Positions 15,332-27,757 of a stretch of DNA of 64,000 nucleotides are shown one piece after another (position 1 is the stretch's first letter; each line of letters begins with the position of its first letter). Where the stretch lies: assembly GCF_015244745.1 (NCBI RefSeq), contig NZ_JABCQI010000001.1:248001-312000 (forward strand), in the 5' to 3' direction. Position numbers and translations under genes: made by a program. A model generated the notes under the pieces. That model ran no database searches. It worked only from the letters and a program-made list of their open reading frames with translations, and had not been told where the DNA came from. The DNA is from Gluconobacter cadivus (GTDB lineage: Bacteria; Pseudomonadota; Alphaproteobacteria; Acetobacterales; Acetobacteraceae).

Positions 15332-16732
15332 ATGCGCTACCGATCGACCCGCGGCGAGCTGACCGCCGACGCCCCGAATTTCTCTGACATCCTTCTCGCT
15401 GGCCTTGCGGGAGACGGCGGTCTCTACATGCCGGAGAGCTGGCCAAAGATCAGCCCGCAGACCCTGCGTGAATGGCGCGCGCTCTCCTATCCGGACCTCG
15501 CAGCCGAAGTCATCGCCCTCTTCACGGAAGGCGCAATCGACGTCGACACCCTGCGCGACATGACACGGGACGCCTATGCCGGTTTCGACCATGCCGCTGT
15601 CGTCCCGCTGGTCGAAGTTGAGCAGGACCTCTACTCCCTCGAACTGTTCCACGGTCCCACGCTCGCCTTTAAAGACATGGCGATGCAGATGCTCGGCCGT
15701 CTATTCGATCACGTCCTGACCCAGCGCAACCGCCATGTTACGATCGTCGGCGCGACCTCCGGCGACACGGGCTCGGCCGCCATCGAAGCCTGCCGTGGCC
15801 GCGAACGCCTCTCCGTCGTCATCCTGCATCCCAAGGGCCGCACCTCGGACGTCCAGCGGCGCCAGATGACGACCGTTCAGGACGACAACATCCTCAATAT
15901 TGCCGTCGAAGGCGATTTCGATACCTGTCAGGATCTGGTCAAGGCGATGTTCGCCGACCACGCTTTCCGTGACGAAGTCTCGCTCTCAGCGGTTAATTCG
16001 ATTAACTGGGCCCGTATCGCCGCCCAGATCCCGTATTATGTCCGCGCAGCTCTCGCGCTTGGCGCTCCGGACCGCGAAGTCTCCTTCTCGGTCCCGACCG
16101 GCAATTTCGGCAATGTCCTCGCCGCATGGGCCGCAAAGCAGATGGGCATTCCCATCAAAAAGCTCTGCATCGGCTCCAACCGCAACGACATTCTGACGCG
16201 CTTCGTCATCGACAACGATATGAGCGTGCGTAGTGTCGAACCAAGCCTGTCACCATCGATGGACATTCAGGTCTCGTCCAATTTCGAGCGCCTGCTGTTC
16301 GAACTGCTGGACCGCAATTCCACGCGTTGCGCCGCCATCATGCGCGAGTTCCGCGAGACTGGTCGCATGGCCGTCCCGCACGACGCCTGGACCCGTATGA
16401 AGGACGTCTTCGAGGGCATGACCCTCACTGACGAACAGACCAGCGAGGCCATGCGACTATTCTACAACGAGAGCCTCTATCTCGCAGACCCACATAGTGC
16501 GATCGGCCTCGCCGTCGGCAAGCGCTTTCAGGAGCCCGGCATCCCCATGGTGGCGGCTGCCACGGCTCATCCTGCCAAGTTCCCGGATGCCGTCACTGCT
16601 GCTACCGGCATTCATCCCAAACTGCCGCCGCACCTGTCCGACCTGTTCGAGCGCACCGAGCGTTACGAGTGCATGGACAGTCAGATCGCTGGTCTTCAGG
16701 ACGCTGTCCGCGCTCACATCAAACGCGCCTGA
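15332..16732 (+). CDS. thrC: threonine synthase
   Basis: PLP enzyme converting O-phosphohomoserine to threonine. The N-terminus RYRSTRGE is the standard start of the long (fold II, type 2) form. LAGLAGDGGLYMPE, the PLP lysine K114 in GPTLAFKDMAMQ, GATSGDTGSAA and NSINWARIAAQIPYY follow. Length of 466 residues is usual. The gene is followed by a small hairpin (16747-16770) and the M16 peptidase on the same strand. Confidence 0.96.
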   Translation: MRYRSTRGELTADAPNFSDILLAGLAGDGGLYMPESWPKISPQTLREWRALSYPDLAAEVIALFTEGAIDVDTLRDMTRDAYAGFDHAAVVPLVEVEQDLYSLELFHGPTLAFKDMAMQMLGRLFDHVLTQRNRHVTIVGATSGDTGSAAIEACRGRERLSVVILHPKGRTSDVQRRQMTTVQDDNILNIAVEGDFDTCQDLVKAMFADHAFRDEVSLSAVNSINWARIAAQIPYYVRAALALGAPDREVSFSVPTGNFGNVLAAWAAKQMGIPIKKLCIGSNRNDILTRFVIDNDMSVRSVEPSLSPSMDIQVSSNFERLLFELLDRNSTRCAAIMREFRETGRMAVPHDAWTRMKDVFEGMTLTDEQTSEAMRLFYNESLYLADPHSAIGLAVGKRFQEPGIPMVAAATAHPAKFPDAVTAATGIHPKLPPHLSDLFERTERYECMDSQIAGLQDAVRAHIKRA

Positions 16733-16746
16733 TCTTCAGAAAAACA

Positions 16747-16770
16747 CAGGCTCTCCATCCGGGGAGCCTG
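16747..16770 (+). repeat. 7-bp hairpin in the thrC-peptidase intergenic gap
   Basis: CAGGCTC (16747-16753) and GAGCCTG (16764-16770) form a perfect stem with a 10-base loop. No T-tract follows, so termination is doubtful. Confidence 0.3.
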
Positions 16771-16795
16771 CCTTCCTTCGACATTACGGAACCTC

Positions 16796-18061
16796 ATGCC
16801 CGATACGATTGAAGTCACCAGACTCGATAACGGCCTGACCATCATCACCGAACGGATGGACCGCGTTGAAACCGTGTCTTTCGGAGCCTATGTCTCCATC
16901 GGCACACGCGACGAGACCGCTGCCAATAACGGCGTCTCCCACTTCCTCGAACATATGGCCTTCAAGGGCACCGAGCGTCGTTCCGCCGCGCAGATCGCAG
17001 AAGATATCGAGAACGTGGGCGGCTACATCAACGCCTACACGGCCCGCGAAACCACGGCCTATTACGTCAAGCTGCTCAAGAACGATCTGGCTCTGGGCGT
17101 GGACATCATCGGTGACATCCTGACCCACAGCACGTTCCTCGATGCCGAAATCGAGCGCGAACGCGGCGTGATCCTTCAGGAAATCGGTCAGGCCAACGAC
17201 ACCCCCGACGACATTATTTTCGACCAGTTTCAGGAACGCGCCTTCCCCGAACAGCCCATGGGCCGCCCCACACTGGGCTCGGAAGAGCTCGTGTCGAGCA
17301 TGACGCGCGACACGCTCATGTCCTACATGCGCGAGCACTACACGACCCACAACATCACGATTGCTGCTGCCGGAAACCTGCACCATCAGGACGTTGTGGA
17401 CTTAGTGAAGGAGCATTTCCGCGACCTGCCATCCCATCAGACGCCCCGCCCCCGCGCCGCGGCCTATGAGGGCGGCGAACTCCGCACGACGCGAGAACTG
17501 GATCAGGCCCATCTCGTCATGGGCTTCCCCTCGGTCAGCTACCTGCACCCCGACCATTACGCGGTCATGATCCTCTCGACCCTGCTTGGCGGCGGTATGT
17601 CTTCTCGCCTGTTTCAGGAAATCCGCGAGCGCCGCGGGCTGGTTTACAGCGTCTATTCCTTCGCCTCCCCTTTCAGCGACAGCGGCCTGTTCGGCCTCTA
17701 TGCTGGCACGGGCGAGGATCAGGCTGCCGAACTCGTCCCCGTCATGATCGACGAACTCAAGCGCCTTCAGGACGGCCTGAGCGAAGCGGAACTCTCCCGC
17801 GCCCGCGCCCAGCTCAAATCCTCGCTTCTGATGTCGCTGGAAAGCACCGGCAGCCGCTGCGAACAGCTTGCCCGCCAGATCCAGGTCCATAACCGCCCGG
17901 TTCCGACTTCCGAGACCGTTGCGAAAATCGACGCTGTAACAGAAGCCGACATCCTGCGCGTCGCCCAGACCATTTTCTCCGGCACGCCGACCTTTACCGC
18001 AATCGGCCCCGTCGGCACCATGCCCTCCCTGGAGGACATCACAGCAAGGCTTGCCGCATGA
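16796..18061 (+). CDS. M16 family zinc peptidase (mitochondrial-processing-peptidase type)
   Basis: Protein of 421 residues with the inverted zinc motif HFLEH (49-53) in GVSHFLEHMAFKGTERR. The downstream acidic helix LDAEIERERGVILQEI supplies the third ligand. The C-terminal half carries the second M16 domain with the substrate-loop signature LGGGMSSRLFQEIRERRGLVYSVYS. This is the pattern of the single-chain alphaproteobacterial enzymes related to mitochondrial processing peptidase beta. There is no signal peptide. The stop overlaps the ATG of pmbA by 4 bases, suggesting the two proteolysis genes are co-expressed. Confidence 0.9.
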   Translation: MPDTIEVTRLDNGLTIITERMDRVETVSFGAYVSIGTRDETAANNGVSHFLEHMAFKGTERRSAAQIAEDIENVGGYINAYTARETTAYYVKLLKNDLALGVDIIGDILTHSTFLDAEIERERGVILQEIGQANDTPDDIIFDQFQERAFPEQPMGRPTLGSEELVSSMTRDTLMSYMREHYTTHNITIAAAGNLHHQDVVDLVKEHFRDLPSHQTPRPRAAAYEGGELRTTRELDQAHLVMGFPSVSYLHPDHYAVMILSTLLGGGMSSRLFQEIRERRGLVYSVYSFASPFSDSGLFGLYAGTGEDQAAELVPVMIDELKRLQDGLSEAELSRARAQLKSSLLMSLESTGSRCEQLARQIQVHNRPVPTSETVAKIDAVTEADILRVAQTIFSGTPTFTAIGPVGTMPSLEDITARLAA

Positions 18062-19389
18062 CCACAACGCCCGTCGAAGCCCTCCTCGCCGCGGCCCGCC
18101 GCCACGGCGCAGATCACGCGGATGCCATTTTCATCCGTGATGAATCTGAATCCGCCCTGATCCGCAAAGGCGTTCCCGAAGGCATCGAGCGCTCCGAAAG
18201 CGTCGCGCTCGGGCTGCGCGTCTTTCGCGGCAAACGGGCTGCCACGGTTTCGACAAGCGTTCTGAACGAGGCTGAATTTGACCGTCTGGCCGAACAGGCC
18301 TGCGCCATGGCTCTCGTCATCCCCGAAGACCAGTATGCCGGACTGGCCGAATCCGCCCTTCAGGGCCGTTTCGATGCCGCCGGACTGGATCTGGAATGCA
18401 GTTCCTCGCCCAGCATGGACGACCTCCTCGTCCGCGCCCGTGAAGCCGAGGACACTGCACTGTCCTTTGAGGGGATTACCAACACCAACGGCGCCTCCGC
18501 CGGACATGGTCGCACTTCGGTCGCACTCGGCACTTCGGCAGGGTTCTTCGGCGCTTACAGCCGCACTGCTCATTCCACCAGCGCCAGCGTTCTTGCTGGC
18601 GAAGGGGCAACGATGCAGCGCGACTATGCTTATCGCAGTGCCGTACATCTGGAAGACCTCGAAAGCCCGACCATCATCGGCCGCGAAGCTGCCGAGCGGG
18701 TTCTGGCTCGCATCAATCCCGGCCGCCCCCGTACAGGCACTTACAGCGTCATCTACGACCCGCGCGTCTCCGCATCACTGCTTGGTCATCTGGTTGGCGC
18801 CATCAACGGCGCGGCCATCGCTCGCGGAACGTCCTTCCTCAAGGACAGCCTTGGCAAGCAGATCCTCTCCGCTGGCCTCATTGTGCATGACGATCCGCGC
18901 CGCATCCGGGGTGCGGCGTCCCGTCCGTTCGATGCTGAGGGCTGTGCCGCCCTGCCGCTGGACCTGATCGCAGATGGCGTCCTTCAGACGTGGCTGCTCG
19001 ATTCCCGCAGCGGTCGCCAGCTCAACATGCCTACAAATGGCCGTGCCAGCCGTGGGGTCGCGTCTCCGCCTTCCCCGAGTGTGACAAATCTTCATCTCGC
19101 AGCCGGAACCCTTTCTTCCGAAGCCCTGCGTTCCGATATCAGTGAAGGGATCCTGATCACCGAACTCATGGGCTCATCGGTCAACGTGCTGACCGGCGAT
19201 TACAGCCGAGGGGCTTCGGGTTTCATGATCCGCAACGGCGAGATTGCCGAACCCGTCGCCGAACTCACGGTTGCGGGCAATCTGAAAGACATGTTTGCCC
19301 GCATGGTTCCGGGCAGTGACCTGATGTTCCGGCAAAGCGTGAATGCGCCGAGTATCCGGATCGACGGCATGAACATTGCAGGACTTTGA
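18058..19389 (+). CDS. pmbA: TldD/PmbA family metalloprotease subunit (PmbA/TldE)
   Basis: Protein of 443 residues, normal for PmbA. Features in order are a N-terminal domain with ALGLRVFRGKRAATVSTS, a middle NTNGASAGHGRTSVALGTS segment, RTGTYSVIYDPRVSASLLGHLVGAINGAAIARG, and C-terminal ELMGSSVNVLTGDYSRGASGFMI. In the TldD-TldE pair the E subunit lacks the HExxxH zinc motif, and none is seen here, so this is the TldE-type partner. Its known roles are peptide degradation and leader-peptide processing. Coupled by overlap to the M16 peptidase and to the Tim44-domain gene. Confidence 0.92.
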   Translation: MTTTPVEALLAAARRHGADHADAIFIRDESESALIRKGVPEGIERSESVALGLRVFRGKRAATVSTSVLNEAEFDRLAEQACAMALVIPEDQYAGLAESALQGRFDAAGLDLECSSSPSMDDLLVRAREAEDTALSFEGITNTNGASAGHGRTSVALGTSAGFFGAYSRTAHSTSASVLAGEGATMQRDYAYRSAVHLEDLESPTIIGREAAERVLARINPGRPRTGTYSVIYDPRVSASLLGHLVGAINGAAIARGTSFLKDSLGKQILSAGLIVHDDPRRIRGAASRPFDAEGCAALPLDLIADGVLQTWLLDSRSGRQLNMPTNGRASRGVASPPSPSVTNLHLAAGTLSSEALRSDISEGILITELMGSSVNVLTGDYSRGASGFMIRNGEIAEPVAELTVAGNLKDMFARMVPGSDLMFRQSVNAPSIRIDGMNIAGL

Positions 19390-20333
19390 TGCGTAATTTT
19401 CGACTTCTCCCTATCGCCTTCGCGGTCTTCTGCCTTTTCGGAACGGCAGATGCGCGCCCGGGCGGCGGCAGTTCTATCGGAAGCCGCGGCTCCCATACCT
19501 GGAGCGCCCCGCCGCGCACCTCCATCACGCCCGGCTGGGCGCGCCCGATGGATCAGTCCGCAACCCCGCGTCCCTCGCCCAATTACGGCGGCGCACCCGG
19601 CTATGCTGCTCCGGCCCGTCCGATGCCGGGTTACGGTGCTCCGGCCTACAGACCGTCCTATCCGGTCCGGCATCCGTTCCTGAGCGGCTTTGCGGGCGGT
19701 TTTCTGGGTGCGGGGCTTTTCGGTCTCCTGAGCGGCCACGGCATGATGGGCGGCATGACAGGCGGAACATCGTTCTTCGGCTTCCTGTTTCAGGTCCTGA
19801 TCATCGGCGGCCTGATTGCTTTTGTGCTGCGTCTGTTCGGCAATCGCCGTCAGAACCAGATGAGCGCCAGTTCCACAGGAATGCCCGCAGGGGCCTCGCC
19901 TTTCGGCAATAACGGCGGCAGCACACCCGTGACGCTCACGAATGACGACTATACGAGCTTCCAGAGGCTTCTGCTCGACATTCAGGCGGCCTGGAGCGCA
20001 CAGAACATGCGCGCGCTTGCCAGCATGGCCACTCCGGAAATGACGGGCTATTTCAACGCACAGCTTTCCGAACTCGCCAGCCGTGGCGCACGGAACATCG
20101 TGTCCAACGTCCAGTTCCAGCGCGGTGACCTCTCCGAAGCCTGGCGTGAAGGCAATCTGACCTACGCCACCGTTGCCATGCGTTACGCCATGACGGATGT
20201 TACGACGGACTCCATGGGCAATGTCATTGACGGCAGTTCCACCGAACCCGTGATCGTAACGGAGCTCTGGACCTTCGTCCGGGCTGATGGACGGGGCAAC
20301 TGGATCCTCTCCGCTATCCAGCAGGCGGGCTGA
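19389..20333 (+). CDS. Tim44-like domain membrane protein
   Basis: Protein of 314 residues whose ATG overlaps the pmbA stop. An N-terminal signal or anchor ends near TADARPGGG, followed by a Gly/Pro/Ser-rich linker (about 20-95). Two hydrophobic segments follow (LSGFAGGFLGAGLFGLLSG; GFLFQVLIIGGLIAFVLRLF). The C-terminal 140 residues (DYTSFQRLLLDIQAAWSAQN to the end, with MATPEMTGYFNAQLSELASR and WTFVRADGRGNWILSAIQQ) match the Tim44-like fold. Such bacterial proteins are inner-membrane associated and of unclear role. A strong terminator follows at 20350-20382. Confidence 0.85.
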   Translation: MRNFRLLPIAFAVFCLFGTADARPGGGSSIGSRGSHTWSAPPRTSITPGWARPMDQSATPRPSPNYGGAPGYAAPARPMPGYGAPAYRPSYPVRHPFLSGFAGGFLGAGLFGLLSGHGMMGGMTGGTSFFGFLFQVLIIGGLIAFVLRLFGNRRQNQMSASSTGMPAGASPFGNNGGSTPVTLTNDDYTSFQRLLLDIQAAWSAQNMRALASMATPEMTGYFNAQLSELASRGARNIVSNVQFQRGDLSEAWREGNLTYATVAMRYAMTDVTTDSMGNVIDGSSTEPVIVTELWTFVRADGRGNWILSAIQQAG

Positions 20334-20349
20334 AAAAGCTCCTCAAACA

Positions 20350-20382
20350 AAAAAGGCCCGGAGCAAAACTCCGGGCCTTTTT
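20350..20382. terminator. bidirectional Rho-independent terminator
   Basis: AAAAAGGCCCGGAG (20350-20363) and CTCCGGGCCTTTTT (20369-20382) form a perfect 14-bp stem with a CAAAA loop. It ends the thrC-side cluster on the plus strand and the relict cox operon on the minus strand. Confidence 0.92.
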
Positions 20383-20398
20383 ATTGCCTGAACGCTTC

Positions 20399-20515
20399 TT
20401 AAAGCCGTGTCAGCGTAATCACGTAAAAAATCACGGCCAGCAGCACCACGCCGCTGACAATCCCCGTAATCCGGCTGAGCCGGCGCTTGCGGGCAAGATC
20501 AACATCCGTCGTCAT
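20399..20515 (-). CDS. CoxF-like small membrane protein (cox operon remnant)
   Basis: A 38-residue frame starting MTTDVDLARKRRLSRITGIV and continuing with one hydrophobic helix ending ITLTRL. The basic stretch followed by a single helix resembles the tiny CoxF-type proteins encoded between ctaB and ctaG in alphaproteobacterial cytochrome c oxidase operons. Position supports this: its ATG lies two bases after the ctaB stop. The usual next genes, ctaG and ctaE, are absent; a terminator follows instead. Function is unknown. Confidence 0.65.
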   Translation of the reverse strand: MTTDVDLARKRRLSRITGIVSGVVLLAVIFYVITLTRL

Positions 20516-20517
20516 GG

Positions 20518-21468
20518 TCATCCGATCAGAACCCGGTCAACAAGAAGTCCGCAGAACAGCAGGAACAGATAAGCCAGCGAGTAACGGAATGCGAAGCGCG
20601 CGGGCTTGTCCTTCGTCAGGCTCACGCCTGTTGCATCCTGCTTGTCCATCAGCACGCGAAACGCGCAGAGAATGAAGCCCAGATCCAGCAGGCTGGTCAC
20701 GATCGTATAGGTCAGCCCGACTTCATGAACGAACGTCGGCACTAACGATACCGCCGTAAGAATGAACGTATAGATCAGGATCTGCCACCGCGTATGGCGC
20801 GCGCCCTTCACGACCGGCAGCATCGGAATGCCAGCCTTGTCGTAATCCTTGCAGGCATAAAGCGACAGCGACCAGAAATGCGGCGGCGTCCACAGGAACA
20901 CGATCGCAAACATTGCGACCGGCAGAACCGCCATGGAATTCATGCTTGCAGCCCAGCCGATCATCGGCGGGAACGCGCCCGCAGCCCCACCGATTACGAT
21001 GTTCTGCGGCGTGCTCCGCTTGAGCCACATCGTATAAATGACGCTGTAGAAAAAGATCGAAAACGCCAGAATACCGGCTGCCAGCGCATTCGTCGCGAGC
21101 CAGAGCACAACGACAGACAGAACCGACAGCACGATCCCGTAAACCAGCGCCGCCTGTTCCGGCATCCGCCCGTCCGGGATAGGCCGCACGACCGTCCGCT
21201 TCATGATCGCGTCGATGTCGCGGTCGTACCACATGTTGATGGCGCCTGCGGCCCCTGCCCCGATGCAAATGCACAGGATGGTAATCAGTCCGATGGGAAT
21301 GGACGGCCAACGCGGCGCCACGGCCATACCCGCGGCCCCGGTAAACACCACCAGAGAAATCACACGCGGTTTAAGAAGTGCCAGCCACTCGCGCAGGGAC
21401 GGATCATTATCCTTCCCCGGAACGGAAAAAACCCCCGAAGGGGCCAGAGGTGTTGTCGTATCGCTCAT
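20518..21468 (-). CDS. ctaB: protoheme IX farnesyltransferase (heme O synthase)
   Basis: Converts heme B to heme O for heme-copper oxidases. The 316-residue UbiA-family membrane protein begins its core with LREWLALLKPRVISLVVFTG. The prenyl-diphosphate/Mg motif NMWYDRDIDAIMKRT follows at about residues 78-92, then RPIPDGRM, and the second loop IGGAAGAFPPMIGWAA with later acidic YACKDYDKAGIPMLP. Length is typical. The start ATG overlaps the stop of the degenerate subunit I gene (ATGA). In an organism using a bo3-type quinol oxidase this gene would stay essential, which could explain its retention. Confidence 0.95.
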   Translation of the reverse strand: MSDTTTPLAPSGVFSVPGKDNDPSLREWLALLKPRVISLVVFTGAAGMAVAPRWPSIPIGLITILCICIGAGAAGAINMWYDRDIDAIMKRTVVRPIPDGRMPEQAALVYGIVLSVLSVVVLWLATNALAAGILAFSIFFYSVIYTMWLKRSTPQNIVIGGAAGAFPPMIGWAASMNSMAVLPVAMFAIVFLWTPPHFWSLSLYACKDYDKAGIPMLPVVKGARHTRWQILIYTFILTAVSLVPTFVHEVGLTYTIVTSLLDLGFILCAFRVLMDKQDATGVSLTKDKPARFAFRYSLAYLFLLFCGLLVDRVLIG

Positions 21469-22643
21469 GCCGAGACCCGGGCACGCCCGGTCTCCCTCAG
21501 CAAGAACAGCCCCACCAGCCCAAAGGCCAGGAGACTGAGCCCCATCAGAACCTCACCATAAATCATCACGCTCGGCACGATTGAACAAAACGCGCCCACA
21601 AGCATGAGACCCGCATGACCTCGGCTGAGCAGCGTAGGCACCCGACCGGGGAGAAGCCCCTCAACCCAGGCATAGAACCCGCCACACAGCGCCATGATCC
21701 CACCAAATGCCACGGCCGTATGGTCGCCTGAATGACCCGGCAGAGCGTCAGACAGCCATCCCGCCGCAAACAGAAGAATGCTGCCAATCGCCCACAGCGC
21801 AGTTCCATCCAGATCACGCTTCTGCTGCCACACATCCCGGCACAGCGCCCCGATCAGCACCACTGACGGCACGATCTGCGTCACCAGAACAAGACTGGCC
21901 CCTAGTCCGGATGCCAAAGACCCATACAGCCCATCCATCCAGAACAGCGGTCCGCCAATCCCCATCACGCCGAACACATAAGGTGCAACCGTCCATGATG
22001 CCCCGCCACGGGCAGAACGTGACAGAAGGGCTGACGTAACCAGCCCGAGTGCCGGGGTCAGCATCAGTGCCATTTCAGGCAGATGAAGGGTCTCGATCAA
22101 GGCGTCGGTAGTCAGCCCGTCCGTCATGCCGCGCGTTACGACAGCCGCCAGAACCGGTGCCACCAGAACGACACTGCATGCCGTTGCAAGAAGCGACCAC
22201 GCCAGGGGGGCCATGTCCCTGAAGCGGCAGATCCGTCCTTCGAGGCAGGTTGTAATCACATCAATCGCTACGGCCAGAATACCGGCAGACCAGAGCAGCA
22301 TCGCGACGAACGGCAGGAGGGGCAGAAGGACAACGCCTGCCGAAAGAAAACCGAATCCCGCCAGCGTCAGTCCGCGAAGTACCGTTCGGTCAGTCCCGAG
22401 CGCTGCCGGGAGAAGCCACTGCCCAAACCCGCCCAGCGCGGCAGGACACATGACGAAAAACGTCATGAGAATACCGTGGCAGAAAGCCTGTCCGCTTGTG
22501 GGGTGTGTCTGGAGAATTGGCAGGGCCAGGGACCCACCCAGCAGGCCTGCAAACAGGGCCAGCAGAATGAAGGATGTTCCGACTCGGCGGCTTGAGCGGT
22601 CCGAGCCAGTATCCGGAGCAGTATCGACGGCCTGATAAGTCAT
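21465..22643 (-). CDS. degenerate cytochrome c oxidase subunit I (CtaD-like), active-site ligands lost
   Basis: A 392-residue polytopic protein from the ATG at 22643; an upstream GTG at 22709 would add 22 residues. Hand alignment to Rhodobacter-type subunit I is clear: CHGILMTFFVMCPAALGGFG matches helix II HGILMxFFVxxPAxxGGFG, APLAWSLLATACSVVLVAPV matches helix V, LPEMALMLTPALGLVT matches GHPEVYxxxLPxFGxxS, and ALWAIGSILLFAAG plus GGFYAWVEG match helices IX-X. Against R. sphaeroides numbering, the low-spin heme ligands H102 and H421 are kept (His56 and His308 here). The CuB ligands H284, H333 and H334, the tyrosine Y288, the heme a3 ligand H419 and K362 are replaced. It cannot be an oxidase but has no frameshift. 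Coupled to ctaB by ATGA overlap. Confidence 0.75.
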   Translation of the reverse strand: MTYQAVDTAPDTGSDRSSRRVGTSFILLALFAGLLGGSLALPILQTHPTSGQAFCHGILMTFFVMCPAALGGFGQWLLPAALGTDRTVLRGLTLAGFGFLSAGVVLLPLLPFVAMLLWSAGILAVAIDVITTCLEGRICRFRDMAPLAWSLLATACSVVLVAPVLAAVVTRGMTDGLTTDALIETLHLPEMALMLTPALGLVTSALLSRSARGGASWTVAPYVFGVMGIGGPLFWMDGLYGSLASGLGASLVLVTQIVPSVVLIGALCRDVWQQKRDLDGTALWAIGSILLFAAGWLSDALPGHSGDHTAVAFGGIMALCGGFYAWVEGLLPGRVPTLLSRGHAGLMLVGAFCSIVPSVMIYGEVLMGLSLLAFGLVGLFLLRETGRARVSA

Positions 22644-22730
22644 GATCGCGTAGTCGGTCCCTGAACTTAGGAATACCGCAGCGAGCGTCGGAATACTCGG
22701 CGCCGACACACATGCGGAACCAAACGCCGA

Positions 22731-23411
22731 TCAGGCGACCAGGGCTGCTGTGTCGCTTTTACTCTCGCATTGCGGCAATGTCACGAGTGTAAACAGCCCC
22801 GCAGGCGGAACCGGCGTCAGCGTTGCACGACGCAGATCTTCCGGCGGCAGGAGCGACTCAATGGCGAAATCCGGATGCCAGCCCAGCGACCGCGACGCCC
22901 GGGCCATGCCACGCTCCACCGACAGACGCACCCCACCTGTTGCCAGAAAATGGTTCACGAAAAGAATGTGCCCACCTGGCTTCACGACGCGCTTGAGTTC
23001 GGCCAGCAGCCGGTCAGGGTGCGGGACAACGGAGGCCACGAACATCGCCACCGCAATATCGAAGCTGTCATCTTCGAACGTTGTGGCTTCCGCATCCATT
23101 TCCAGCAGATCGTCCACATTCGTCAGATGCTCCTGAAGCACCCGCATCCGTGCACGCTCAAGCATGTCTTCGGAAAGATCGATTCCCGTGATGCGTTTGC
23201 TCTGGGAGTAGGACGGCAGGGCCAGCCCCGTTCCGACACCGACTTCCAGAACCCTCTCGCCTGGCAGAGCATTGACCGCAGCCACTGCTCTCTTGCGCCC
23301 GTAACCCGAAATACCGCCAAAAACAGTATCATAAACACGGGCCCAACGACGATAAGCCGTCTTGACGGCTTCCGCGTCCAGTGCCGAACGCGGGGAAAGG
23401 GTTGAGGACAT
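22731..23411 (-). CDS. pmtA: phosphatidylethanolamine N-methyltransferase, Rhodobacter type (PmtA)
   Basis: SAM-dependent methylation of phosphatidylethanolamine to phosphatidylcholine. The N-terminal AYRRWARVYDTVFGGISGYG and the SAM motif VLEVGVGTGLALPSYS with GIDLSEDMLERARMRV are characteristic of the soluble Rhodobacter-type Pmt. LAELKRVVKPGGHILFVNHF follows. With the ATG at 23411 the protein has 226 residues, normal for the family; an in-frame extension to 23540 shows no conserved sequence. Acetic acid bacteria are known to make phosphatidylcholine by this route. Divergent from a small membrane gene. Confidence 0.85.
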   Translation of the reverse strand: MSSTLSPRSALDAEAVKTAYRRWARVYDTVFGGISGYGRKRAVAAVNALPGERVLEVGVGTGLALPSYSQSKRITGIDLSEDMLERARMRVLQEHLTNVDDLLEMDAEATTFEDDSFDIAVAMFVASVVPHPDRLLAELKRVVKPGGHILFVNHFLATGGVRLSVERGMARASRSLGWHPDFAIESLLPPEDLRRATLTPVPPAGLFTLVTLPQCESKSDTAALVA

Positions 23412-23574
23412 CGTAATATGCGACCTTCTTTGTCCGCCCGGCCTTCGCAGACCAGAGCTATCCGGAACATGTTCAATTCGCACCTTCTTGCCCTCCCCGA
23501 TAGGCATCTGGCAAGACACGCAGTGTGCATGACCCTTCAAACCCGTGCCATGAACAAGACCAGGGAGGACAAAC

Positions 23575-23772
23575 GTGCTGATCTATTTCCTTGTGGCGTT
23601 CACTTGCGTGGCCTGGGGCAGCATCTTTTTCATGTATTTCCGCAAACATCTTGAGGAGTGGTTCGGCAACCGTTTCGGCCGGGACCAGCCACCCAAGGTG
23701 AAAGAACTTCCGCCGGAGGAACCGCGGACGTCTTTCGCTCACAGGCTTCCTTCAGAGGACGGACAGCCCTGA
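23575..23772 (+). CDS. small single-pass membrane protein, unknown function
   Basis: A 65-residue protein starting at GTG, with a strong AGGGAGG site at 23562-23568. One N-terminal hydrophobic helix (LIYFLVAFTCVAWGSIFFMYF) is followed by a charged, Pro-rich cytoplasmic-type tail (GRDQPPKVKELPPEEPRT). No family is recognised. The strong ribosome site makes it likely to be real. It lies between divergent pmtA and convergent gshB. Confidence 0.6.
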   Translation: MLIYFLVAFTCVAWGSIFFMYFRKHLEEWFGNRFGRDQPPKVKELPPEEPRTSFAHRLPSEDGQP

Positions 23773-23796
23773 CCGGCAGCCCGTCCCCGACAGACT

Positions 23797-24774
23797 TCAC
23801 GCCAGAACGCGTCTCTCGATCGCATCCCAGATCAGCCCCGCACTGTTGATGCCATCAAAGCGGTCCAGTTCCTGCAAACCGGTTGGGGACGTGACGTTGA
23901 TTTCCGTCAGCCAGTTCCCGATCACGTCGATTCCTGTAAAAATCAGCCCATGGTCGCGCAGATATGGCCCGATCGACTCACAGATTTCCCGATCACGCGC
24001 CGTCAGTTCCACACTCATGGCCCGGCCGCCGACATGCATGTTCGAGCGCGCCTCTCCCGTTGCCGGAACCCGGTTGATCGCACCGATCGGCTCGCCATCC
24101 ACCAGAATGATGCGCTTGTCTCCCTGACGCACGGCCGGCTCGTAACGCTGGATCATGAGCGGTTCACGCGAACGTGCGAAATGCATCTCCAGTAGCGCGC
24201 CCAGATTTTCATCATCCGGCTTGATCCGGAAAATCCCGGCCCCACCATTGCCGAACAGCGGCTTTACGATCAGGTCGTGATATTTTTCGCGGAACGCCAG
24301 AATCTCGCGCGTATCCCATGTCACGAGGGTCGGGGGCATCAGATGCGGAAAATGAGTCACCAGCAGCTTCTCCGGCGCGTTCCGCACCGCTACCGGATCG
24401 TTCACCACGAGCGAGCGTCCCTCCCCCACACCATGCACATGCTCCAGCATATGCGTAGCCGTGATGTAGCCCATGTCGAACGGCGGATCCTGACGCATCA
24501 GGATCACATCCGTCTGCCCCAGATCCAGAACCTGCTCTTCGCCGAACGTCGCATGATTGCCACGTTCGCGCCGCACTTCAACTCGCCGTGCCCGCGCCTG
24601 AACACGCCCGCCCCGTCCCTGTCCTTCGACAAGGCTCAGCGTCGTCACCGGATAGACCCACAGTTCATAGCCGCGCGCCTGAGCCTCAAGCATCATCGCA
24701 AACGTGGAGTCGCCGTCAATATTGACGGACTCCAGGGGGTCCATCTGAACAGCAACGCGAAGAGAACGGGACAT
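23797..24774 (-). CDS. gshB: glutathione synthase
   Basis: ATP-grasp ligase joining gamma-glutamylcysteine and glycine. Of 325 residues, the N-terminus LRVAVQMDPLESVNIDGDSTFAMMLEAQ is diagnostic, followed by ILMRQDPPFDMGYITATHMLE, the ATP-binding DLIVKPLFGNGGAGIF, RVPATGEARSNMHVGG and INVTSPTGLQEL. GGAG 7 nt before the ATG supports the start. Glutathione would supply glyoxalase I near 63 kb and may support redox defence with the peroxidase at 4 kb. Confidence 0.95.
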   Translation of the reverse strand: MSRSLRVAVQMDPLESVNIDGDSTFAMMLEAQARGYELWVYPVTTLSLVEGQGRGGRVQARARRVEVRRERGNHATFGEEQVLDLGQTDVILMRQDPPFDMGYITATHMLEHVHGVGEGRSLVVNDPVAVRNAPEKLLVTHFPHLMPPTLVTWDTREILAFREKYHDLIVKPLFGNGGAGIFRIKPDDENLGALLEMHFARSREPLMIQRYEPAVRQGDKRIILVDGEPIGAINRVPATGEARSNMHVGGRAMSVELTARDREICESIGPYLRDHGLIFTGIDVIGNWLTEINVTSPTGLQELDRFDGINSAGLIWDAIERRVLA

Positions 24775-24869
24775 CAGGAAACTCCGGTCCGGGGAAATGG
24801 GAGTGGAACAGTCTGTGTAAACGCAGGTCGTACTTTTTCAAAGCCACACCCCTGCCGCGCGTTCATACG

Positions 24870-25373
24870 TCAGGCCGCTACCGCCACGGGATAGGCGATC
24901 TTCAGGATTTCGATCTCGACCGGCCCGCGCGGCGTCTGTAACATCGCCACGTCCCCGACCCGCGTCCGCATCAGTGCCCGCGCCACCGGCGAGACCAGAC
25001 TGACCTCGCCACGCGCCAGATCGGACTCGTCCACACCGAGGATCGTCACCGTGTGCTCGACGTCATCCTCGTCCACATAGGTCACAGTCGCGCCGAAAAA
25101 CACACGATCTCGCGTCGTCTGGGCCGCAGGATCGACAATCACCGCGTTTTCCAGCCGCTTACCCAGAAACCGCATCCGCCGGTCGATTTCCCGCAGTCGG
25201 CGTTTACCATATTGGTAATCTGCGTTCTCCGAACGATCGCCATTGCTGGCCGCCCAGGATACGATTTCCACTATGCGTGGCCGTTCCTTCTGAGCCAGTT
25301 CCTTCAGTTCAGCCCGCATGACAGCCGCGCCTTTCGGCGACAGATAATGCGACAACGGCGTTTTCTCAGCCAT
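24870..25373 (-). CDS. greB: transcription elongation factor GreB
   Basis: Rescues backtracked RNA polymerase by stimulating transcript cleavage. The 167-residue protein has the N-terminal coiled coil with SPKGAAVMRAELKELAQKERP, and the acidic-tip region SNGDRSENADYQYGKRRLRE followed by IDRRMRFLGKRLENA. KRRLREIDRRxRFL is the GreB rather than the GreA form. The C-terminal domain contains FGATVTYVDEDD and SPVARALM. The ATG lies one base after the uvrB stop, so the in-frame upstream extension is spurious. Translational coupling to uvrB is expected. Confidence 0.92.
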   Translation of the reverse strand: MAEKTPLSHYLSPKGAAVMRAELKELAQKERPRIVEIVSWAASNGDRSENADYQYGKRRLREIDRRMRFLGKRLENAVIVDPAAQTTRDRVFFGATVTYVDEDDVEHTVTILGVDESDLARGEVSLVSPVARALMRTRVGDVAMLQTPRGPVEIEILKIAYPVAVAA

Positions 25374-25374
25374 C

Positions 25375-27591
25375 TCAGCGACCTCCCCGACCGCGTTTTT
25401 TCTTGGCCGGATCATACCCTCCCCCGCCCGGTCCCAGAGGAACAGGCGTCTTCGGAGCCTTTCGGGCACCCGGACGTCCAGCAGTCGAGTTGGCAATCGG
25501 CGGCGGCTCCAGCCCCATATCGATCGCTTCCAGACGCTTGACCTCGTCGCGCAACCGGGCTGCCTGTTCGAAGTCCAGATTGGCCGCAGCCTCGCGCATC
25601 CGTTTTTCCAGATCCTGAATCGTCGCGGGCAGCGATTTGCCAACAAACTGCTCCGTATCGCCAGAGCCGTCTGGTGCTACCGTCACATAATCCTGCTCGA
25701 ACACCGAGGACAGCGCATCGCCGATCTTCGACCGCACCGTCATCGGCGTAATTCCGTGCGCCTCGTTCCATTCCGTTTGCTTGGCCCGGCGCCGCGCCGT
25801 CTCCTCGATCGCGTATTTCAGACTGTCCGTCATCTTGTCCGCATAAAGCAGCACACGCCCATCGACGTTACGCGCCGCACGCCCGATCGTCTGGATCAGC
25901 GATGTTTTGGACCGTAGGAATCCTTCCTTATCGGCGTCGAGAATGGCCACAACCGAACATTCCGGAATATCCAGCCCCTCACGCAGCAGGTTAATCCCCA
26001 CCAGCACATCGAAGGCCCCAAGACGCAGATCACGGATGATCTCGATCCGCTCCAGCGTATCCACGTCCGAGTGCAGATACCGGACCTTGACGCCCGCCTC
26101 ACCCAGATAATCCGTCAAATCCTCGGCCATCCGCTTGGTCAGCGTCGTGACCAGAACCCGCCCGCCCTTGCTGATCGCGTCCCGACATTCATGCAGCAGA
26201 TCATCGACCTGCCCCTCGACCGGACGCACAACCGTCACCGGATCGATCAGTCCCGTCGGACGAATGATCTGCTCGGCAAACACGCCGCCAGTCTGTTCCA
26301 TTTCCCACGGCCCCGGCGTCGCGGAGACGAAAATCGACTGCGGTCGGAATGCGTTCCATTCCCCGAAAGCCAGTGGGCGGTTGTCGATACAGGACGGCAG
26401 ACGGAACCCGTAATCTGACAGCACGCTTTTCCGCGCCCTGTCCCCACGCTCCATCCCGCCGATCTGCGGCACCGTGACATGACTTTCATCCACGATCAGC
26501 AGCGCATCTTCCGGCAGATATTCGAACAATGTCGGCGGAGGATCGCCCGGACCACGCCCGGACAGATAGCGCGAGTAGTTCTCGATCCCCTTACACGCAC
26601 CCGTCGTCTCGATCATTTCCAGATCGAACGTGGTGCGCTGCGACAGACGCTCCGCCTCCAGCAGCTTTCCGTCCTCGGTGAACTGCTGGAGACGCCCGCG
26701 AAGTTCGTTCTTGATCCCGATCATCGCCTGATTGAGCGTGGGACGCGGCGTTACGTAATGCGAGTTCGCATAGACGCTGATTTCCGCCAGATCCGCCGTC
26801 TTGTTTCCCGTCAGCGGATCGAACTCCACGATCTGATCGATCTCGTCGCCAAAAAGCGACACGCGCCAGGCCCGGTCCTCGTTCTGCACCGGAAAAATGT
26901 CGATCTGCTCACCCCGCACCCGGAACGTCCCGCGCTCGAACGCCGCATCATTGCGCCGGTACTGCAACTCCACCAATGCCTTGATCAGCCGCTCGCGATC
27001 GATAGAACCGCCAACCTCAAGCCGCACCACCATTTTCGAATATGTCTCGACCGACCCGATACCGTAAATACAGGACACAGACGCCACGATGATAACGTCA
27101 TTGCGCTCCAGCAGCGCCTGCGTGGCCGCATGGCGCATCCGGTCGATCTGCTCATTAATCTGGCTGTCTTTTTCAATATACGTATCCGACCGCGGCACGT
27201 AGGCCTCCGGCTGATAGTAATCGTAGTACGACACGAAATATTCGACCGCATTATCCGGAAAGAACTGCTTCATCTCCCCATAAAGCTGCGCCGCGAGCGT
27301 CTTATTCGGAGCCAGAATAAGCGTCGGCTTCTGCGTCGCCTCAATGACTTTCGCCATGCTGAACGTCTTGCCCGAGCCCGTGACACCCAGCAGGACCTGA
27401 TCCCGCTCGCCGCCCTCAACGCCCTGCACAAGCTCCGAAATCGCCGTCGGCTGATCGCCCGCGGGCTCGTAATCCGACTTAACGACAAGCCTGCGCGTTT
27501 TGGGTTTGACGGGCTGCCTCTCAGGGAGAAACTGCGTCAGAGGCATGGAGGCAGCATTGCGAATGGAAGAGGTCGGTTTTTTGGCCATCAT
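25375..27591 (-). CDS. uvrB: excinuclease ABC subunit B
   Basis: DNA damage verification helicase of nucleotide excision repair. Domains in order are [19 protein letters not shown], Walker [16 protein letters not shown], the damage-loading beta-hairpin region [24 protein letters not shown]-like [13 protein letters not shown], helicase C motifs [13 protein letters not shown] and [11 protein letters not shown], and the UvrC-binding UVR motif [22 protein letters not shown]-terminal Gly/Lys-rich tail ends the protein. Start at the MM pair (27591/27588) is a best guess; an in-frame ATG at 27657 exists, and the first 40 residues are not conserved. Followed by greB with a one-base gap. Confidence 0.94.
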
Positions 27592-27757
27592 CGCAAGATG
27601 GGAAACCGCGCGACACAGGGCAAGGGGCATCTGCACAGAGGCCTCTCCGGACAACATTTCGCCCGCATATCTTTATGACATTTTATTGCTGAAAGGGATG
27701 GAGAGACTCGCCGTCCGGCGTTATCAACGCCCATGTCTCTTTGAAGGAAAAGCCGTC

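Follow-up and report, generated by a model that had tools for sequence, protein, structure and literature searches.

A ctaD-derived gene overlapping ctaB in Gluconobacter encodes a COX1-like protein without the binuclear centre that keeps both low-spin heme ligands

RESULTS

We analyzed a 64,000-nucleotide stretch of the Gluconobacter cadivus genome (NCBI RefSeq assembly GCF_015244745.1, contig NZ_JABCQI010000001.1, positions 248,001 to 312,000; hereafter the window) for ctaD', a ctaD-derived COX1-like gene that lies directly before ctaB (Table 1). As the original prediction held, the ctaD' frame is intact, running unbroken from an ATG at 22643 to a TGA at 21465. Its product matches Pfam COX1 (PF00115) with 42.7 bits (E = 4.5e-11), above the curated cut-off of 34.8, and its top match among solved structures is subunit I of an aa3-type oxidase (E = 7.8e-11; structure 3om3, which we take to be that of R. 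sphaeroides). A profile of 24 orthologues aligned with eight canonical CtaD proteins by hhalign at 100% probability (E = 2.8e-54) over 400 columns. These 24 (set A2) come from the first set of 46 copies described below, near-duplicates and the distant or cut copies L072-L076 and L082 being left out, and 20 of them match PF00115 at E <= 0.001. The equivalog cut-off of TIGR02891 (cytochrome c oxidase subunit I), 670.75, was not reached (30.3 bits). These matches bear out the predicted homology to CtaD. Placement in some other polytopic family, the alternative raised at the outset, found no support: no match in the Pfam or NCBIfam searches beat COX1.

The description of the protein as full-length stood in part. 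Its core segments can be aligned with canonical CtaD, but it has 392 amino acids (aa), compared with open frames of 533-584 aa in the eight canonical proteins, and the stretches between anchor residues are shorter. The canonical 86-87 residues that separate P125 from the helix IV arginine are reduced to 57-71, and the 37 residues before H421 become 19-39 in the non-canonical copies. Loops of this kind face subunit II, some of them meeting its CuA, and carry Mg and propionate residues. The host belongs to Gluconobacter; the closest named relative found is G. kondonii NBRC 3266 (96% identical).

Table 1. Positions of ctaD', its key codons and adjacent features in the window
Feature	Position	Strand	Evidence
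ctaD' (ctaD-derived COX1-like gene), 392 aa, no binuclear centre	21465..22643	-	Pfam, structure match, profile alignment
His56 codon, equivalent to CtaD H102, low-spin heme ligand, helix II	22476..22478	-	Sequence; His in 100/101 copies
His308 codon, equivalent to CtaD H421, low-spin heme ligand, helix X	21720..21722	-	Sequence; His in 100/101 copies
Leu188, replacing CuB ligand H284, followed by the kept Pro189 and Glu190	22080..22082	-	Sequence, alignments
Asp237-Gly238, replacing CuB ligands H333-H334	21930..21935	-	Sequence, alignments
Leu263, replacing K362 (K-channel lysine)	21855..21857	-	Sequence, alignment
Gly306, replacing high-spin heme ligand H419	21726..21728	-	Sequence, MAFFT, hhalign
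ATGA overlap of ctaD' stop and ctaB start	21465..21468	-	14/14 Gluconobacter loci
ctaB, heme O synthase, 316 aa	20518..21468	-	NF003349, 328 bits (cut-off 246); TIGR01473, 318.2 (cut-off 210.3)
Methyltransferase-domain gene upstream of ctaD'	22731..23540	-	Pfam; neighbourhood flank, not claimed as a functional part

Residue equivalences were taken from MAFFT alignments, and H102, H419 and H421 were also read by hand from the hhalign alignment; H102, H284, H421 and the like follow CtaD numbering, while H56, H308 and the like number the window protein. Both low-spin heme ligands predicted to be retained are present, H308 standing 18 residues before the tryptophan of GFYAW. E286 and the proline before it (P285), also predicted to remain, do so as E190 and P189. 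All six residues predicted to be replaced have been: Y288 is A192, and the others are given in Table 1. The entire catalytic heme-copper set (three CuB histidines, Tyr288 and H419) is thus gone, as foreseen, and D132 and the propionate arginines R481/R482 are replaced or deleted as well. Apart from these residues, the protein differs from CtaD/COX1 of aa3-type oxidases in its shorter loops and in having no COX3-family gene alongside. It shares with them, besides the two histidines, the fold family at the profile level, the helix I glycines, W331, the GFYxW motif and the position before ctaB. The comparison confirms that ctaD' encodes a CtaD homologue that has no binuclear centre and keeps both low-spin heme ligands. 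The only other COX1-family protein of the host genome, a complete 667-aa protein encoded about 59 kilobases (kb) away (L001), has the full complement of metal ligands and is read as CyoB.

To follow these residues across relatives, we assembled two sets of copies. A search of 150 Acetobacteraceae genomes, the host's included, yielded matches to the ctaD' protein in 133. By extent of match, 33 were taken as carriers of a non-canonical copy; the other 100, all partial matches, were read as canonical CtaD from their length, and alignment confirmed eight of these. The 33 carrier copies and 13 named Gluconobacter loci form the first set (46 copies). The second set (55 copies) came from a search of 397 genomes. 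Matches at E <= 1e-85 were found in 82, and 27 of these already belonged to the first set. Together the sets hold 101 non-canonical copies with 95 distinct sequences. Among 289 genomes of the class, 237 had matches at E <= 1e-25; of the matches listed, those from outside the Acetobacteraceae have open frames of at least 477 aa and are, from length alone, read as ordinary CtaD.

The original prediction had asked whether the two histidines vary freely, and they do not. In the first and second sets, respectively, 46 and 54 copies have H102 and 45 and 55 have H421, which is 100 of 101 for each. The pair lies within one stop-free frame in 99 copies (45/46 and 54/55). Of the two exceptions, L072 is truncated by the end of its contig ahead of H421, and L228 (G612:C21:23600-25400), from an 85%-complete genome assembly, is frameshifted, with the histidine in another frame. 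By comparison, H284, Y288 and K362 are absent from all 101 copies, H419 is present in one (from the first set), H334 in 10 (two and eight) and H333 in 46 (15 and 31). The two residues thus retained, H102 and H421, are the ones that would bind a single heme. In the first set, H333, the CuB ligand within W-x-H, is kept in L053-L060, L062, L063, L066-L068, L070 and L072, though its partners are nearly always lost.

In all 46 first-set copies, 22 residues separate H56 from P79. The stretch of 17 residues between H308 and W326 is ungapped in all 45 copies that reach it, the tryptophan itself being kept in 43. Among 29 first-set representatives (<80% identity, L072 omitted), whose mean pairwise identity is 27%, six columns are invariant: G36, H56, P79, W149, W235 and H308. 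When 48 representatives of both sets are used (proteins <380 aa omitted), four remain, G36, W149, W235 and H308; H56 drops out solely through the frameshifted L228. L082 (6453-8033 of G071:C20) is non-canonical with a 526-aa frame, loops nearer the canonical length and W172 kept, and is perhaps an early state of oxidase-site loss. The open frame of L058 (8003-10258 of G042:C3) extends to 751 aa, either an upstream fusion or merely a long open frame.

Within Gluconobacter, the ratio of non-synonymous to synonymous substitution rates (dN/dS) of ctaD' averaged 0.082 over 91 pairs. Selection is thus not relaxed, and ctaD' is under purifying selection. Frequent frameshifts, suggested beforehand as the mark of a decaying pseudogene, were not seen: one copy of 101 is frameshifted and one is cut by a contig end. 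A stop within the profile match was reported for eight rows of the second search, whose profile also took in open frame lying ahead of the true starts; six of those genomes had shown none in the first search, and all eight copies have both histidines in one open frame.

In 31 of 32 genomes ctaB follows ctaD' directly, and in the remaining one a contig end cuts the locus; ctaD' occupies the place of canonical ctaD in canonical relatives. In Gluconobacter the two genes overlap at every locus inspected (Table 1), an arrangement that points to possible translational coupling. Adjacency and overlap together support the predicted link to CtaB. The scanned flanks of the window hold genes for threonine synthase, an M16 peptidase, PmbA/TldD, a Tim44-like protein, the methyltransferase, glutathione synthetase, a Gre factor and UvrB. 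Neither a subunit II nor an electron carrier is encoded among these neighbours (15332-27657; the search for subunit II covered the window only), and in none of the 33 carriers does the COX1-like gene have a COX3-family gene as its neighbour. One genome, G001, shows the locus without ctaD'. There, thrC, M16, pmbA, Tim44-like, ctaB, methyltransferase (72% identical to that of the window), gshB, gre and uvrB follow one another, each placed by tblastn, and no COX1-like match lies between ctaB and the methyltransferase gene (L096, 7640-9220 of G001:C7). G001 is a natural deletion of the COX1-like gene. On a larger scale, the CyoB gene lies about 48-60 kb from the ctaD'-ctaB pair in G000, G046, G061, G073, G101 and G118 (in G000:C1, 208751-210097 for the CyoB gene versus 269468-270643 for ctaD'). 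This spacing suggests a long conserved gene order.

All 33 carriers have CtaB. Each also has a full-scoring COX1-family protein whose open frame exceeds 660 aa; its length and score led us to read it as CyoB. Surf1 was found in none of the 33, versus four of four canonical genomes. Cox11 was likewise missing from the 33 carriers and from all 35 genomes searched; this negative is weak alone, because the canonical G077 was also missed and only one of 14 controls was positive. CtaA (heme A synthase) was detected in 15 of 33 carriers and in none of three genomes of the window's genus, so a heme bound there would be b or o. Four further genomes, G029, G066, G070 and G116, are nested among carriers on the UvrB tree and have no ctaD', no CtaB over the cut-off and no CyoB-like protein. 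In three of these a single COX1-family protein remains, its frame being 785-833 aa long, which may be a quinol nitric oxide reductase.

A COX1 tree was built from 25 of the 46 first-set non-canonical rows, eight canonical proteins and one CyoB. The non-canonical rows form one clade (support 100/100) whose sister is a canonical CtaD from the same family, and grouping of L071, L075 and L082 with the canonical L079 was rejected by the approximately unbiased (AU) test (p = 0.0009). The CtaB tree agrees with a single non-canonical clade (Shimodaira-Hasegawa-like approximate likelihood ratio test, SH-aLRT, 87). On the UvrB tree, canonical G086 groups with carriers G071 and G132 (99/88), as it does on a UvrB+ThrC tree of 22 genomes (97/95); on the latter data, a single carrier clade without G086 was not rejected (AU p = 0.128). 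We prefer one origin of non-canonical CtaD, two origins being possible. Because named Gluconobacter are among the carriers, we infer, with the available text of PMC10715153, that they correspond to the acetous clade of the literature.

DISCUSSION

The original prediction offered electron transfer, heme delivery and structure as roles for a protein with one low-spin heme. Of these, heme handling together with CtaB weighs highest. Judged by conservation alone, the ctaD' protein very probably binds heme, and a role linked to CtaB is likely. The more specific proposal, a one-heme membrane protein that works with CtaB and perhaps acts as heme acceptor or buffer, seems to us evenly balanced. That the protein also hands heme on is conceivable, with the balance tipping slightly the other way.

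In this proposal, ctaD' would originate from the CtaD (COX1) of an ancestral aa3-type oxidase. Once that enzyme had gone, the heme a3/CuB centre, proton-channel residues and parts of several loops would have been stripped away, and selection would have maintained a membrane protein in which H56 of helix II and H308 of helix X hold a single bis-His heme, the heme in the window's genus being presumably b or o. Such a protein would partner CtaB, taking the heme o product or the heme b substrate into its low-spin pocket, and the heme might be held, buffered or passed towards the bo3 oxidase, in genomes that yielded no Surf1 and, in many cases, no CtaA. A COX1 able to fill the first site only would be a natural holder for heme leaving CtaB. 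The fullest version is that COX1 was turned, probably once and then by inheritance in the vinegar-bacteria branch, into a one-heme holder between CtaB and bo3 that replaces the work of Surf1 and CtaA. We offer it tentatively and regard it as rather doubtful.

Work on heme delivery gives this proposal a setting. The consulted portion of PMC9145763 describes CtaA and CtaB as forming a complex that may tunnel heme O, and low-spin heme as forming first in subunit I; there Surf1 binds heme A, probably via His, and is proposed to help insert heme (section 8). As a heme-binding membrane protein, Surf1 is a functional analogue only: no sequence relation is claimed, and it is missing from the 33 carriers of ctaD'.

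Several observations favour the proposal. Of 101 copies, 99 retain the two low-spin ligands; of the other four ligand histidines, H284 is gone from every copy, H334 and H419 from nearly every copy and H333 from roughly half. The two ligands are invariant among the 29 first-set representatives, dN/dS is low, and ctaD' directly precedes ctaB. The 33 carriers all have CtaB and a protein read as CyoB, Surf1 and Cox11 were found in none and CtaA in 15, and the four nested genomes without ctaD' lack CtaB and the CyoB-like protein alike. Several others weigh against it. At R481/R482, the propionate arginines of the low-spin heme site, no arginine is present in any of the 46 copies of the first set (one being too short to reach these positions), and R52 is retained in only 10 of 101; the low-spin pocket is therefore altered. 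Within Gluconobacter, dN/dS is higher for ctaD' than for ctaB (0.033). E. coli makes heme O without a known partner of this kind. G001 keeps ctaB without ctaD', with gene order matching on both sides, so CtaB does not need ctaD' everywhere and the latter is not present wherever ctaB is; G001 also keeps two full-scoring COX1-family proteins and is likewise without Surf1. The joint loss in G029, G066, G070 and G116 could be one deletion of adjacent genes. The sole structure model of the protein (AlphaFold2, from 14 close Gluconobacter sequences) is poor, showing 12 helices at low confidence (mean predicted local distance difference test score, pLDDT, 44.3).

Finally, seven carriers (G042, G060, G071, G073, G123, G132 and G142) carry, at a site other than the ctaD' locus, an extra complete COX1 with a COX3 gene next to it. 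Loss of cytochrome c oxidase is therefore not general among carriers, and the original prediction of such loss holds only in that ctaD' survived the loss of the ancestral oxidase.

A structural scaffold, which would stabilize CtaB in the membrane with no need to bind heme, has already been proposed in print (PMC10715153, in the text available). The adjacency and overlap of ctaD' and ctaB would suit it, but a pure scaffold would not need the two heme ligands, which are both kept at a mean identity of 27%, and ctaB is kept in G001 without ctaD'. We consider it unlikely. The same holds for an electron-transfer cytochrome, a one-heme membrane protein that would trade electrons with quinol, with a dehydrogenase or with a partner in the periplasm. 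The low-spin bis-His heme is the electron-transfer site of the parent enzyme (PMC9145763, consulted in part), and each of the 33 carriers has a protein read as quinol oxidase subunit I; yet the inter-anchor loops are cut back, ctaD' has no COX3-family gene beside it in the carriers, and its scanned neighbours in the window include no subunit II or electron carrier.

Two further alternatives are very improbable. A decaying pseudogene carried along with ctaB might explain the long branches on the ctaD' tree, the frameshifted L228, the clean absence in G001 and the term 'deranged' used in print (PMC10715153, available text), but not a dN/dS of 0.082, nor the specific retention of two ligands, H56 and H308, that are not free to vary and share a stop-free frame in nearly all copies. 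The idea that proteins of certain genera still bind two cofactors, the H333 equivalent serving as a further ligand where it is retained, would draw on the 15 first-set and 31 second-set copies with H333, but this position is Asp in the window protein, H284 and Y288 occur in none of 101 copies and H419 in one, and Cox11 was found in none of 35 genomes, in a search that also missed canonical G077.

Both the gene and its loss of oxidase function were already known. PMC10715153, in the portion available and citing Matsutani et al. 2014 (doi 10.1016/j.bbabio.2014.05.355), reports a 'deranged COX1-like protein' of Acetobacter beside ctaB, describes this remnant as having lost metal ligands and proposes a structural role for it towards CtaB. 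In the excerpt of PMC5158111 consulted, ctaB and ctaD of A. pasteurianus have neighbouring locus tags. Compared by description only, the Acetobacter protein resembles the ctaD' product in its family and its ctaD position next to ctaB, and differs in that the low-spin ligand pair was found kept in the copies analyzed here. That pair is not mentioned in the passages of literature searched, which did not extend to Matsutani et al. 2014 itself, and a term search in the main texts of two Gluconobacter knockout papers gave no match. Our analysis adds to the printed record the kept low-spin pair, together with tests of selection, synteny and co-occurrence.

The printed statement that the COX1-like protein lost all cofactor ligands is thereby corrected for the low-spin pair. 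The route by which newly made heme enters an oxidase is an unsettled question. A natural COX1 that has the ligands of the first-filled site only, and whose gene overlaps ctaB, would allow the question of heme delivery to be tested in an easily grown bacterium.
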